Below are positions 1,738 to 35,640 of a stretch of DNA of 64,000 nucleotides, piece by piece. Under the pieces are notes generated by a model, which was given only the letters and a program-made list of their open reading frames with translations, searched no databases and had not been told where the DNA came from. A program made the position numbers and the translations under genes. Origin of the DNA: Halomonas sp. (GTDB taxonomy: Bacteria; Pseudomonadota; Gammaproteobacteria; Pseudomonadales; Halomonadaceae); NCBI RefSeq assembly GCF_017983445.1, contig NZ_JAGOBJ010000006.1, positions 243,585 through 307,584 on the forward strand. The letters run 5' to 3'. How positions within the stretch are numbered: the stretch's first letter is position 1; the number at the start of each line of letters is the position of its first letter.

Positions 1738-2877
1738 ATGGCGTTCGACCCACCTACCATACTGACCTTGACCATTGCGATCGCCGCTGCGGCGGCGGTG
1801 TATCTACTCATGGAGTGGCGCAGCGCTCGCGATGGCTCACTTCTCAGCTGGTCGGCGGGCTTTGCAATGATCACCCTTGGCTCGAGCCTTTCTTTACTGC
1901 GTGCTAACGGTTATTTTCTGGTCGGCATCTGGGTTGCCAACGGCTTACTGATACTTGCCCATTGGCTGTTTTTATTAGGCGTCATACGTTTTGTGGGTGG
2001 GCGCCTGCCTCGCCTTTGGTGGCTTTTGCCTGCAGCGTGGAGCTTGCTTCTACTGCTGCCAGAAGGCCCTGAAAGCTCAAAGGTTTATCTGGTCGTCAAT
2101 TCACTGCTGGTGGGGTTCATCTCACTCAGGGCCAGTGCGCTACTAAGACTTGAGCCCGATATGGCGAACGTTGGTACTCGCCAACTGCACTATGTGCTTC
2201 TCGTTCATGGCCTGTTCTACTTGGCCAAGGCGGCAGTAACGTTGATGCCCGGCACTCTGATCGACCTGGCTATCTTCCATGGCGCTATCATACGAATATC
2301 ACTGGTTGAGGGTGTGATGGCCATATTGCTGGTCGCCCTTTCAATGACAGGCACGGTACGCTACCGGCGTGAAAGTATGATCAAGCGTCTGGCAGAACGT
2401 GATCCTCTTACGTCACTCTATAACCGCCGCGGTTTCGAGGCGCGGACTCGCCGCCATCTGGCAAACGTATCTGCCGAGCATCCTGGGGCGCTATTGTTGA
2501 TCGATATTGATCACTTTAAACTTGCCAATGATTTTCACGGCCATGCCGCAGGCGACTATCTGCTGGTAACGTTAAGCGATCTTGTCGGCCAAATTCTGCC
2601 CGAAGAAGCCCTGAAAGCGCGCCTGGGCGGCGATGAGTTTGCCTTTTTACTCAGTGACACGTCTGCCGAGCAGATTGAATCTTTTGGCAACGAACTGCGC
2701 GCCCGCTTTTACGAAGTCGCTGCCAAAACGTTCAACACACCTCAACCGGTAACCCTTAGCCTTGGCGCTATCCTCTTTAGCCAACCGCCCAAAGATTTAC
2801 GCATCCTGCTTGAGCAGAGCGATCAAGCGCTTTACGAAGCCAAGCGCAACGGGCGGGACCGGCTTAAAATACTGTAA
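1738..2877 (+). CDS. Membrane diguanylate cyclase (GGDEF)
   Basis: Probable inner-membrane diguanylate cyclase that makes c-di-GMP from two GTP. Residues 1-205 hold about six hydrophobic segments with no recognisable named sensor domain. The GGDEF domain covers roughly 215-379, opening with RDPLTSLYNRRGFE and carrying the intact catalytic motif GGDEF near residue 299. The position of the inhibitory I-site (RxxD, five residues before the motif) reads PEEA, so product feedback inhibition at the canonical site is probably absent. It starts at ATG 1738. The stop codon lies a few bases before repeat array 1, so the array forms its 3' flank. The signal sensed is unknown. Confidence 0.9.
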   Translation: MAFDPPTILTLTIAIAAAAAVYLLMEWRSARDGSLLSWSAGFAMITLGSSLSLLRANGYFLVGIWVANGLLILAHWLFLLGVIRFVGGRLPRLWWLLPAAWSLLLLLPEGPESSKVYLVVNSLLVGFISLRASALLRLEPDMANVGTRQLHYVLLVHGLFYLAKAAVTLMPGTLIDLAIFHGAIIRISLVEGVMAILLVALSMTGTVRYRRESMIKRLAERDPLTSLYNRRGFEARTRRHLANVSAEHPGALLLIDIDHFKLANDFHGHAAGDYLLVTLSDLVGQILPEEALKARLGGDEFAFLLSDTSAEQIESFGNELRARFYEVAAKTFNTPQPVTLSLGAILFSQPPKDLRILLEQSDQALYEAKRNGRDRLKIL

Positions 2878-2883
2878 ACGTAA

Positions 2884-4850
2884 CCCCAGCGGCGCCAAGT
2901 CGCCCTGCCGATGCCACCGAAACCTGGCACCGCTTCGCGCTGCTTCCGCGGGTGCGCTGGCGCTTACCACGCGCTACTGTTAGCGCGTGCGTTTGCATCT
3001 GAACACTCGTAGCGCGTGGTAACGCATCTTGCGAGGCACGAGCAAATGCGGCACCCGCGGATGGCGGCGTCAAGCCGCCCTGCCGATGCCACCCAACCCC
3101 GGCACCGCTGTGCGCTGCTCTCGCGGGTGCGCTGGCGCTTACCACGCGCTACATGGCCCTGCGTTACGTTTGGGCTCGAAGACTCGTAGCGCGTGGTAAC
3201 GCATCTTGCGAGGTACGAGCAAATGCGGCACCCGCGGGCGGCGGCGCCAAGCCGCCCTGGCCGTGCCACTAAACCCCAGCACCGCTATGCGCTGCTCCCG
3301 CGGGTGCGCTGGCGCTTACCACGCGCTACATGGCCCTGTGTTACGTTTGGGTTCGAAGACTCGTAGCGCGTGGTAACGCATCTTGCGAGGCACGAGCAAA
3401 TGCGGCACCCGCGAATGGCGGCGTCAAGCTGCCCTGACGATGCCACCCAACCCCGGCACCGCTATGCGCTGCTTCCGCGCCGGGCCGCCGCTGCGGGTGC
3501 GCTGGCGCTTACCACGCGCTACATGTCCCTGCGCTACGATTGCATCTGAACACTCGTAGCGCGTGGTAACGCATCTTGCGAGGTACGAGCAAATGCGGCA
3601 CCCGCGGATGGCGGCGCCAAGCCGCCCTGACGATGCCACCCAACCCCGGCACCGCTATGCGCTGCTTCCGCGCCGGGCCGCCGCTGCGGGTGCGCTGGCG
3701 CTTACCACTCGCTACATGTCCCTGCGCTACGATTGCATCTGAACACTCGTAGCGCGTGGTAACGCATCTTGCGAGGCACGAGCAAATGCGGCACCCGCGA
3801 ATGGCGGCGTCAAGCCGCCCTGACGATGCCACCCAACCCCGGCACCGCTTCGCGCTGCTCCCGCGGGTGCGCTGGCGCTTACCACGCGCTACATGGCCCT
3901 GCGTTACGTTTGCATCTGAACACTCGTAGCGCGTGGTAACGCATCTTGCGAGGTACGAGTAAATGCGGCACCCGCGAATGGCGGCGCCAAGCCGCCCTGA
4001 CGATCCCACCCAACCCCGGCACCGCTATGCGCTGCTTCCGCGCCGGGCCGCCGCTGCGGGTGCGCTGGCGCTTACCACGCGCTACATGTCCCTGCGCTAC
4101 GATTGCATCTGAACACTCGTAGCGCGTGGTAACGCATCTTGCGAGGCACGAGCAAATGCGGCACCCGCGAATGGCGGCGCCAAGCCGCCCTGGCCGTGCC
4201 ACCCAACCCCGGCACCGCTATGCGCTGCTCCCGCGGGTGCGCTGGCGCTTACCACGCGCTACATGGCCCTGCGTTACGATTGCATCTGAACACTCGTAGC
4301 GCGTGGTAACGCATCTTGCGAGGTACGAGCAAATGCGGCACCCGCGGATGGCGGCGTCAAGCCGCCTTGGCCGTGCCACCCAACCCCGGCACCGCTATGC
4401 GCGCTGCTCCCGCGGGTGCGCTGGCGCTTACCACGCGCTACATGTCCCTGCGTTACGTTTGCATCTGATCACTCGTAGCGCGTGGTAACGCATCTTGCGA
4501 GGCACGAGCAAATGCGGCACCCACGAATGGCGGCGCCAAGCCGCCCTGGCTAAGCCACCACCCCAAACCCCAGCACCGCTTCGCGCTGCTCTCGCGGGTG
4601 CGCTGGCGCTTACCACGCGCTACATGGCTCCTCGTACGATTGCATCTGATCACTCGTAGCGCGTGGTAACGCATCTTGCGAGGCACGAGCAAATGCGGCA
4701 CCCGCGAATGGCGGCGCCAAGCCGCCCTGACGATGCCACCCAACCCCGGTACCGCTGTGCGCTGCTTCTGCGGGTGCGCTGGCGCTTACCACGCGCTACA
4801 TGGCCCTGCGTTACGTTTGGGCTCGAAGAGTCGTAGCGGTCGGTAGCTAA
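2884..4850. repeat. Repeat array 1: inverted-arm modules, 177-193 bp period
   Basis: About 2 kb of direct repeats fills the gap between the 3' ends of the diguanylate cyclase gene and mdh. The left arm begins GTAGCGCGTGGTAA at 3009, 3186, 3363, 3556, 3749, 3926, 4119, 4296, 4475 and 4656; a degraded copy is at 4833. Periods are 177 bp, or 193 bp where a 16-bp GC-rich insert is present, plus 179 and 181 bp. Each unit is left arm (about 50 nt, ending GCACCCGCG), core (with GGCGGC..AAGCCGCC and AGCGCATAGCG-type small hairpins), right arm (CGCGGGTGCGCTGGCG, then TTACCACGCGCTAC) and a spacer of 33 nt (31 and 32 once each). The arms are inverted repeats of each other. The left arm contains a hairpin with loop GAGGCACGA or GAGGTACGA. 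Reading frames through it encode only repetitive, Arg/Ala/Cys-rich peptides and are not counted as genes. Confidence 0.95.
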
Positions 4851-4922: not shown

Positions 4923-5897
4923 TTAGCCGAGCAGGTGCTCAACAGCTGCGCGCTCTTCACGCAATTCTTTCTCGGTGGCTTTCATCTTCTCTTGGCTGAA
5001 TTCGTCAAGCTCGAAACCTTGAACGATTTCATACTTGCCACCCTGGCAACGTACCGGGTAGGAGTAGATGATGCCTTCTTCGATGCCGTAGCTGCCGTCA
5101 GACGGAATCGCCATGCTGACGATACCGTCGGTGCCCAGCGCCCAATCACGTACGTGATCGATGGCGGAAGAAGCGGCAGATGCTGCTGAAGACGCACCAC
5201 GAGCCTTGATGATCGCCGCACCGCGCTGTTGAACAGTGGGGATAAAGTCGTTTTCGTACCAGTCACGCTCGACCAGGTCAGTGGCGGCTTTGCCGTCAAC
5301 TTTGCACTGTGCGATGTCTGGATACTGAGTGGCGCTGTGGTTACCCCAGATAATCATGTTTTCAATGTCAGTAACATGCTTACCGGTTTTCTGAGCCAGC
5401 TGCGTCAACGCGCGGTTGTGGTCCAGGCGCGTCATGGCCGTGAACTGACCTTTATCGAGATCCGGCGCGTTTGCAGATGCAATCAGCGCATTGGTGTTGG
5501 CCGGGTTGCCGACAACCAGCACTTTAACGTCACGGCTGGCGTGGTCGTTGAGTGCTTTACCTTGTACGGAGAAGATTGCCGCGTTCGCTTCCAGCAGATC
5601 CTTACGTTCCATACCCGGACCACGCGGACGAGCACCTACTAACAGCGCGAAGTCAGCATCTTTGAACGCAACGTTCGGATCGTCTGTAGCAACGATATCC
5701 TGCACCAGCGGGAAGGCACAGTCATTGACTTCCATTACCACGCCGCCCAGCGCATCCATCGCCTGCGGGATTTCTAGCAGTTGAAGAATGACGGGCTGAT
5801 CCGGCCCCAGCATGTCGCCAGCGGCGATGCGGAAAATTAAAGAGTAGCTGATCTGGCCGGCACCGCCGGTAATCGCAATACGTACGGGATCTTTCAT
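4923..5897 (-). CDS. mdh: Malate dehydrogenase (type 2, NAD-dependent)
   Basis: Cytosolic TCA-cycle enzyme interconverting malate and oxaloacetate, 324 aa, matching the usual 325-330 aa of the MDH type 2 group. The Rossmann motif [16 protein letters not shown] is at the N terminus. [10 protein letters not shown] is near residue 130, substrate-binding MTRLDHNRA follows near 155, and the catalytic His is in [11 protein letters not shown] near 184. Two ATG codons are adjacent. The second (5897) has GGAG at 5 nt spacing, the first (5900) at only 2 nt, so I chose the second. It is monocistronic, with its own terminator at 4861-4895, and its 3' end faces repeat array 1. Confidence 0.97.
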
Positions 5898-6057
5898 CAT
5901 TGCTCCTTGGTTGGTTCGCCTTAGGATGGGTCGACAGAACTCAAGATGCCAAGATGTTATGCTCAGTTATACAAAAACTCAATCATACATACGATGAGTT
6001 CTCCCGTTCGGCCGCTCGCTTGGCACTCGCCGCTGGCAACGAGTTACGTTATGGTGT

Positions 6058-10308: not shown

Positions 10309-10337
10309 AATAGCTTGGCTAGGCGGTTTCGCCGTCA

Positions 10338-10450
10338 CCCGCGGGTGCCGCATCGCTCGTTCCTCGCGATGCGTTACCACGCGCTACGTTAAGTGCCAGT
10401 ATGTGGAATAGGTGCTTTTCGTAGCGCGGCGTCAGCGTTAGCGCACCGCT
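10338..10450. repeat. Solitary copy of the array repeat (inverted orientation)
   Basis: This single module lies in the 156-bp gap between the convergent 3' ends of the RND pump and rsd. Bases 10338-10387 are the reverse complement of the array left arm, ending TTACCACGCGCTAC. After exactly 33 nt, bases 10421-10450 are a degraded reverse complement of the right arm, beginning GTAGCGCGGCG. It is therefore one right-arm/spacer/left-arm junction without the core segment seen between modules in the arrays. Its internal hairpin is GCATCGC, loop GAGGAACGA, GCGATGC (minus strand). Confidence 0.88.
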
Positions 10451-34530: not shown

Positions 34531-35640
34531 GGGACCGTCTTATACGCGGGTCTCTATTTTCAAATCCAACAAGAGTAGCGCGTAGTAACGTTTTGCGAGG
34601 AGCGAGCAAATAAGGCATCCGCGGGTGGCAGTGCAAGCTGCCTTGGGCTAGCCATCAATGCTATGCCTTCGTGTCCCCATCACCCAACCCCGGCAGCGCT
34701 TCGCGCTGCTTCCGCGGGTGCGCTGGCGCTTACCACGCGCTACGGGTTCTCTCTATTTTCCAATCCAGCAAGAACCGTAGCGCGTGGTAACGTTTTGCGA
34801 GGAACGAGCAGATAAGGCACCCGCGAGTGGGCGGCGTCAAGCCGCCTGGGCTGTGCCACCAATGCTATGCCTTTGTGTCCCATCACTCAACACGGCAGCG
34901 CTATGCGCGCTGCTCCCGCGGGTGCGCTAGCGCTTACCACGCGCTACGGGTTCTCTCTATTTTCCAATCCAGCAAAAACCGTAGCGCGTGGTAACGTTTT
35001 GCGAGGAACGAGCAAATAAGGCACCCGCGAGTGGCGGCTGCTAAGCCACCTTGGCTGTGCCACCAATGCTATGCCTTTATGCCTCATCACCCAACCCCAG
35101 CACCGCTTCGCGCTGCTCACGCGGGTGCGCTGGCGCTTACCACGCGCTACGGTTTGTGCATTATCAAACGATGGATAAGCCCCCTACGTAGCGCGTGGTA
35201 ACGTTTTGCGAGGAACGAGCAAATAAGGCACCCGCGAGTGGCGGCAGCCGCCGCTTGGGCTGTGCCACCAATGCTATGCCTTCGTGCCTCATCACCCAAC
35301 CCCGGCAGCGCTATGCGCGCTGCTCCCGCGGGTGCGCTGGCGCTTACCACGCGCTACGCGTTCTCTCTATTTTCGAATCCGGGAAGAACCGTAGCGCGTG
35401 GTAACGTTTTGCGAGGAACGAGCAAATAAGGCACCCGCGAGTGGCGGCTGCTAAGCCGCCTTGGCTGTGCCACCAATGCTATGCCTTTATGCCTCATCAC
35501 CCAACCCCAGCACCGCTTCGCGCTGCTCCCGCGGGTGCGCTGGCGCTTACCACGCGCTACGGTTTGTCACTCTGTTCGAATTCGGCAGTAGCGCGGGGGG
35601 CGAGCGAATACCGGGACCCGCGTGAAGCGGGTGCCGACAT
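34531..35640. repeat. Repeat array 2: inverted-arm modules, about 202-bp period
   Basis: This array fills the 1.1-kb gap between the convergent 3' ends of nudE and the oxidoreductase gene. Left arms begin GTAGCGCG at 34575 (array edge), 34777, 34981, 35188, 35391 and 35588 (degraded); periods are 202, 204, 207, 203 and 197 bp. Right arms end TTACCACGCGCTAC. Spacers between arms are 33, 33, 37, 33 and 27 nt. Spacer sequences alternate between a GGGTTCTCTCTATTTT type and a GGTTTGT type, both unlike array 1. The left-arm hairpin has loop GAGGAACGA with stem TTTGC/GCAAA. Arms and parts of the core (CAACCCCGGCA, GCGCTTCGCGC) are shared with array 1. Reading frames here encode only repetitive peptides and are not counted as genes. 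Confidence 0.95.

Follow-up and report, generated by a model that had tools for sequence, protein, structure and literature searches.

Between two convergent genes of a Halomonas genome (3.9 Mb in 16 contigs) lies a series of inverted-arm modules separated by spacers of nearly constant length. What are these modules, and why is their spacing so regular? The preliminary description of the window, by which we mean the whole 64,000-nt stretch analysed (C1:243585-307584), had not recognised the modules as REP/BIME, ERIC, attC or CRISPR. We find instead that the repeats match the known REPIN/BIME family, and we conclude with high confidence that array 1 is a tandem array of REPINs/BIMEs carrying a RAYT-linked REP population and amplified in place as whole units. 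The system is the REPIN/BIME plus RAYT combination of E. coli, Pseudomonas, Stenotrophomonas and others, a known family that is apparently new for Halomonas/Vreelandella; the literature searched under Halomonas, mostly outside subscription journals, yielded no published REPIN/RAYT system in this genus. An unexplained array thereby becomes a REPIN/RAYT system in Halomonas/Vreelandella.

A tandem array of paired inverted repeats

Tandem repeat analysis (TRF) delimited array 1 at 2889-4819, with 10.6 copies of period 177 and an 88% match. The array is flanked by the convergent genes of a GGDEF diguanylate cyclase (+ strand) and of malate dehydrogenase (mdh, - strand), and the 3′ flank of mdh proved to be a recurrent array site across the genus. 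Array 2 also sits between convergent genes. Searches with the arm GTAGCGCGTGGTAA, allowing up to two mismatches, found 33 arms in the window, where shuffled sequence gives an expectation of 0.56, and the complete modules number 15 (10 in array 1 and 5 in array 2) rather than the 17 counted before (Table 1).

The complete modules of array 1 measure 144, 144, 160, 160, 144, 160, 144, 146, 149 and 144 nt in order. The segment enclosed by the arms had been thought to vary freely; the ten complete modules are in fact 90-97% identical in pairwise comparison, gaps left out, and their differences in length come mostly from one 16-bp insert, present in three of them. On remeasuring, the eleven junctions between modules agreed with the lengths first given, nine of 33 nt, one of 31 and one of 32 (in order 31, 33, 33, 33, 33, 33, 33, 33, 33, 32 and 33 nt), the last running up to a decayed arm, GTAGCGGTCGGTAG, at 4833. 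Inverted pairs of REPs thus recur in tandem together with their flanking DNA.

Table 1. Repeat elements of the window and the genes bordering array 1 (positions in the window)
Feature	Position	Strand	Remarks
GGDEF protein gene	1738..2877	+	points toward array 1
Array 1	2889..4832	.	1 truncated and 10 complete REPINs, TT spacers 31-33 nt; repeat and arm searches
Truncated first REPIN	2889..2977	+	right half only
REPIN 1	3009..3152	+	
REPIN 2	3186..3329	+	unit taken for folding and genome search
REPIN 3	3363..3522	+	carries 16-bp insert
REPIN 4	3556..3715	+	carries 16-bp insert; 1 mismatch in right arm
REPIN 5	3749..3892	+	
REPIN 6	3926..4085	+	carries 16-bp insert
REPIN 7	4119..4262	+	
REPIN 8	4296..4441	+	
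REPIN 9	4475..4623	+	
REPIN 10	4656..4799	+	
Final spacer and decayed left arm	4800..4846	+	spacer 33 nt; arm GTAGCGGTCGGTAG from 4833
mdh, malate dehydrogenase	4923..5900	-	
Lone REP remnant	10322..10387	-	just downstream of AcrB-family gene
Array 2	34575..35560	.	five REPINs; spacers 33, 33, 37, 33 nt
Array 2 REPINs	34575-34743, 34777-34947, 34981-35150, 35188-35357, 35391-35560		
G+C-rich insert variant	3480, 3673, 4043; L032, L035, L037, L069, L070, L075-L077, L080, L085, L090		window positions, then other loci

The arms belong to REP elements

Each arm opens a REP with the layout GTAG-CGCG(N)GGT-AA...GC-ACCCGCG. GTAG and CGCG are usually followed by one or two additional bases, then come GT and AA, next a loop or an inner hairpin, and finally GC and ACCCGCG; the inner hairpin is long in the left REP and short in the right. 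In section 10 of PMC8266576, E. coli REPs are described as imperfect palindromes preceded by GTAG, with a conserved AA-GC mismatch. The AA/GC stem mismatch, a group-2 REP feature, is present here: when GTAG and the stem arms were fixed and both dinucleotides left free (AA being tried first if there were two parses), AA stood opposite GC in 141 of 148 distinct REPs, with AA and AC in 4 and other pairs in 3. An earlier free count gave AA.GC in 296 of 332 rows and GT.GC in 29, which we attribute to the way GGTGTAA arms are parsed. When the tag was left open and only the stem was held constant, GTAG stood in 141 of 242 rows and AGCG in 84, the latter taken as the same sites in a shifted register.

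In the predicted minimum-energy fold of the left REP as DNA, CGCG pairs with CGCG and GGT with ACC, while GTAG and the AA/GC positions stay unpaired. A whole REPIN (3186-3329) folded as DNA is more stable than all 200 of its shuffles (z -5.2), and the same is true of it as RNA on either strand (z -5.3 and -4.6). Folded alone, the left REP is weakly better than shuffled sequence (z -1.75, equalled by 13 of 200 shuffles) and the right REP is no better (z 0.16), which counts against our assignment. The GTAG tag lies beside an imperfect palindrome, whose fold is weak in the right REP. In the left-REP alignment the outer-stem pairs scarcely vary, and covariation was read without a shuffle control; the case for REPIN identity does not lean on it. 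Since the module search behind that alignment demanded AA and its outer-pair score permitted one bulge, the freer count of 148 REPs was used instead.

Both the strong fold and the regular alternation of repeat and spacer would suit a structured small RNA, an integron attC array or a CRISPR-like array. We consider any of these extremely improbable, given that an Rfam scan of the window produced 0 matches above the gathering score, that the spacers are near-copies and not unique, and that the same arms flank a transposase gene (below) and occur in 53 of the 82 genomes of the genus. A CRISPR array, which has unique spacers between short repeats, was rejected because the nine 33-nt spacers of array 1 are 70-100% identical to one another. 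A tRNA scan of the window found nothing. Judged from the sequence, the arms do appear to be what the preliminary description took them for, conserved and foldable elements of a protein-recognised type rather than decayed DNA. Its exclusion of REP/BIME does not hold against the GTAG tag, the imperfect palindrome and the inverted pairing, nor against a RAYT gene that is flanked by the same repeats and shares their distribution.

A single RAYT gene flanked by the same REPs

A search of the genome for Y1 transposases returned one gene, C1:174606-175115, 71 kb from array 1. Its product scores 189.4 bits with the NF047646 REP_Tyr_transpos model (cut-off 80) and barely passes Pfam Y1_Tnp (23.6 against a cut-off of 23). 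Among PDB entries only TnpA-REP (4ER8, E=8.6e-47) matches it at E up to 0.01, and with this entry its HxH and tyrosine stretches (LPDHLHCLW and MDYIHYNPVK) align; counted along this alignment the catalytic tyrosine is Y120, the mutant of the E. coli enzyme being named Y115F in the portion of PMC8266576 consulted. By these sequence matches the gene is classified as encoding a REP-associated tyrosine transposase (RAYT).

Partial REP elements begin 13 nt 3′ of the RAYT stop codon, and the first intact arm, at 157 nt, opens an array of the same arms as array 1. At the RAYT loci of relatives, at least one such arm lies within about 1.5 kb in 26 of 29 cases and at least two in 22 of 29, and no arm of the searched type was found at the remaining 3 of 29. 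At the RAYT locus of alkaliantarctica (L089, 10577-11322), the REP arms beside RAYT are in the same orientation and do not form inverted pairs.

Spacer length is a property of each array

The preliminary description had read the conserved spacing as a sign of function and had named freely varying spacer lengths in other genomes as what would speak against it. We measured spacers in 32 arrays, namely those with at least two spacers within 10 kb of RAYT in 24 named relatives (Vreelandella, Halomonas and one Halovibrio) and at loci of the own genome. From array to array the median varies between 15 and 76 nt, and on the criterion just named the argument from conserved spacing fails. The medians of the own genome are 36, 36, 36, 37, 38, 33, 33 and 23 nt. 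Within arrays the length is tightly held: 96 of 120 junctions fall within 1 nt, and 102 of 120 within 2 nt, of their own array median. Sequence follows the same division, the likeness of the 33-nt spacers inside array 1 giving way to a mean identity of 27% (maximum 33%) between the spacers of arrays 1 and 2. Constancy and likeness within arrays together with unlikeness between them are what results when a unit is duplicated along with its flanking DNA. Spacer length is array-specific, and its constancy is best read as a by-product of copying whole units, not as a measured distance.

Selection on a spacing of about 33 nt, whether for the placement of a protein or for cruciform geometry, could be argued from arrays 1 and 2, which share 33 nt with unrelated sequences, and from the mdh site, where 10 of 15 spacer lineages lie within 25-35 nt (the others being 19, 22, 39, 100 and 107 nt) and a mild tendency in length remains. 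Such selection is largely refuted by the medians of other arrays in this family, which are 15-28 and 50-76 nt, and within-array constancy goes hand in hand with sequence likeness, as duplication predicts; we hold it to be very improbable.

Spacer sequences also hint at the ancestry of array 1. The orthologous mdh array of V. zhanjiangensis (G271) contains two spacer kinds. Of the 11 array 1 spacers, 9 are similar to the first kind (z 4.3-5.7, equalled by 0 of 1000 shuffles) and the remaining two less so (equalled by 29 and 5 of 1000). The spacer of a further genome, G205, is similar to the second kind (z 10.2) but not to the first, for which 420 of 1000 shuffles did equally well. Under stricter lineage clustering (z at least 5), array 1 spacers were not joined to the G271 spacer. 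These resemblances may mean that an ancestral array held several units and that each lineage multiplied a different one. By eye, the 37-nt spacer of array 2 is like the spacers of an array on contig C6.

REPs crowd near the RAYT gene

The own genome contains 104 exact GTAGCGCGTGGTAA arms, against 0 matches to a control pattern read backward. Among the matches listed (100 of the 104), 95 fall in C1:171798-279144, about 108 kb around and downstream of RAYT. Twelve REP clusters on C1 were checked for genes; they are mostly intergenic, with a single arm (220193) inside a predicted ORF, and none lies between divergent genes when the closest genes that have a counterpart in G271 or G251 are considered.

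Other genomes show the same crowding. Arms within 110 kb of RAYT make up 68 of 84 in G235 (9 of 21 clusters; binomial 5.5e-07 against a uniform spread), 26 of 39 in G251 (8 of 17 clusters; 2.5e-07), 38 of 48 in G221, 40 of 48 in G234 and 33 of 45 in G271, counts that are non-independent between genomes, whose sites are shared by descent, and that favour young copies, the patterns being exact. Most of these near arms are downstream of RAYT (50 of 68 in G235, 24 of 26 in G251, 38 of 38 in G221, 37 of 40 in G234 and 29 of 33 in G271). G220 has three arms only, 0 of them within 110 kb of RAYT.

In the three genomes in which both were compared, each with its chromosome in one large contig (G235, G251 and, among the matches listed, G269), the downstream side of RAYT faces away from the dif match. 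A tie between the REP cluster and the replication terminus was considered and rejected, since in six genomes RAYT and the dif match are about 550-780 kb apart.

Array sites are shared, and arrays accompany RAYT

The 12 REP clusters in C1:171-280 kb could be followed into relatives. In G271, arms occur at 11 of the 12 orthologous stretches, one of which (site 192037) is weak evidence with its bracketing gap of 17.6 kb; per-site arm counts in the own genome and G271 include 21 and 8, 20 and 4 (mdh), 21 and 1, 10 and 3, and 7 and 0. In the more distant G251, 7 of the 12 sites were bracketed, 5 with arms (one of them only inside a 4.3-kb gap) and 2 without; the mdh site of this genome, unbracketed, has 3 arms. 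The array sites are thus largely inherited. The site of the lone REP remnant beside the AcrB-family gene has 3 arms at its orthologous position in G271.

Across the genus, 32 of 82 genomes reach 120 bits or more when searched for the RAYT family (RAYT+), the gene being in pieces or having an internal stop in five of them (G197, G199, G216, G223 and G241). Ten or more exact arms occur in 20 of the 32 RAYT+ genomes, compared with 3 of the 50 RAYT- genomes. Counting against our reading are these three, which hold 16-18, and the 12 RAYT+ genomes with fewer than 10, some of which use other arm variants. The mdh gene was found in 80 of 82 genomes, and in the 74 examined there, arms occur within 900 nt 3′ of it in 25 of 31 RAYT+ and 3 of 43 RAYT- genomes. 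The first arm is within 250 nt in 21 of those 25 and at 707-771 nt in G238, G258, G224 and G223. Four of the misses are cut by a contig edge (G196 and G262, RAYT+; G233 and G250, RAYT-). With cut flanks scored as unknown and G194 added, 25 genomes have both RAYT and array, 4 RAYT only (G199, with its broken RAYT, G202, G220 and G229), 4 the array only (G194, G240, G243 and G256) and 38 neither.

Because Fisher's test ignores relatedness, we ran simulations on a tree. On the mdh gene tree of 78 genomes, parsimony gives about 16 changes of RAYT state and 13 of array state. The correlation between the two traits is 0.77, against at most 0.47 in 1000 simulations of independent traits, a result that rests on this one gene and on an array score counting arms up to 900 nt; with a 250-nt limit (21, 8, 4 and 38 genomes) it is 0.65 against at most 0.45, again unreached in 1000 simulations. 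The four array-only genomes, in which a close RAYT is absent and arms are kept 3′ of mdh, are placed near RAYT+ relatives, as expected if arrays decay after RAYT loss, and are candidates for recent loss of the gene.

These distributions bear on the idea that the array serves the host as a regulatory element of mdh or of the GGDEF gene (3′ mRNA protection, a barrier to transcription, or gyrase or IHF binding), with selection holding arms and spacing in place. The frequent position of arms close behind mdh in RAYT+ genomes fits it, as do the strong RNA fold of the whole module on both strands and the lack of C1 clusters between divergent genes. Nevertheless, 38 of the 42 scored RAYT- genomes have no array there despite having mdh, and array presence tracks RAYT. 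Moreover, the spacers at the mdh site fall into 15 lineages (19-39 nt, also 100 and 107 nt), and copy number at this site differs widely. We regard a host element as unlikely.

That RAYT and a fixed-site array have repeatedly been lost or gained together is an observation worth a test. One tentative and rather doubtful idea is that RAYT, as a domesticated transposase, maintains a set of REPIN arrays at inherited sites that stay fixed in its neighbourhood, with growth and shrinkage in place, crowding within about 110 kb and mostly downstream, and loss of the mdh array along with RAYT. If true, RAYT would be a local array-maintenance factor rather than mainly a genome-wide mobiliser. Since many array sites are shared and the RAYT state changes about 16 times, the genus offers a natural experiment on the role of RAYTs and REPINs for their host and on whether arrays need RAYT to persist.

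Relation to known REPIN/RAYT systems and a proposed mechanism

The closest parallel is the REP/BIME system of E. coli with its RAYT (TnpA-REP, yafM, PDB 4ER8; group 2), which shares the GTAG tag, the AA/GC mismatch stem, inverted tandem REP pairs and a RAYT that is cognate by sequence. Here, by contrast, the stem sequence is another one, two unlike REPs are joined into a longer REPIN, and exact copies crowd within about 110 kb of RAYT. Our comparisons with the systems below draw on portions of the papers cited. The REPINs of P. fluorescens SBW25 (PMC3116915) are alike in their hairpin REP doublets, their tandem clusters of REPIN plus flank and the location of clusters beside RAYT genes, whereas the units here are longer and arrays of the own genome reach 10 complete REPINs, the largest cluster given in those portions having 4. 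The length of the REPIN, 101-191 nt in a set of 31, counts against our assignment when set beside the P. fluorescens doublets, with distances of 71 and 110 bp in the same source.

Stenotrophomonas and Thauera, as excerpts of PMC2817692 describe them, share head-to-tail BIME modules with differing inter-REP segments; they are another taxon, and the sites here are common to several species. Marinomonas REPtrons Ma and Mb (PMC8266576, in part) are alike in the concentration of REPs near tnpA, which is taken there as a recent arrival, whereas here several species show the crowding. That REPs concentrate locally near rayt is already on record for Thauera, where more than a third of REPs are near rayt (passages of PMC2817692), and for Marinomonas (section 10 of PMC8266576). 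Portions of three papers also bear on amplification, reporting GTAG dimers whose clusters repeat along with the adjoining DNA, most spacers being 20-100 bp long (PMC3733652), a rolling-circle model for head-to-tail BIME modules (PMC2817692) and local amplification attributed to the replication machinery (PMC8049555).

The REPIN consists of two GTAG-tagged group-2 REP hairpins in inverted orientation, together 144-160 nt long and foldable on one strand, and the single RAYT 71 kb away (TnpA-REP, a Y1 HUH endonuclease) goes with this REP population. We propose the following course of events. By analogy with E. coli, the enzyme should recognise GTAG and the hairpin in single-stranded DNA and cut nearby. 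One REPIN would have settled 3′ of mdh in an ancestor and then been inherited; in the present lineage the unit of REPIN plus about 33 nt of neighbouring DNA would have been amplified head to tail, and spacing would be constant within an array and differ between arrays because the spacer was copied with each unit. Amplification may have been driven by RAYT, through the rolling circle proposed in PMC2817692, or may have come about by slippage or unequal exchange.

The G+C-rich insert variant of the REPIN turned up at several loci and in several species, on either strand, in a search with a 20-mer at up to two substitutions and without a chance control; its presence at differing loci may reflect exchange between arrays.
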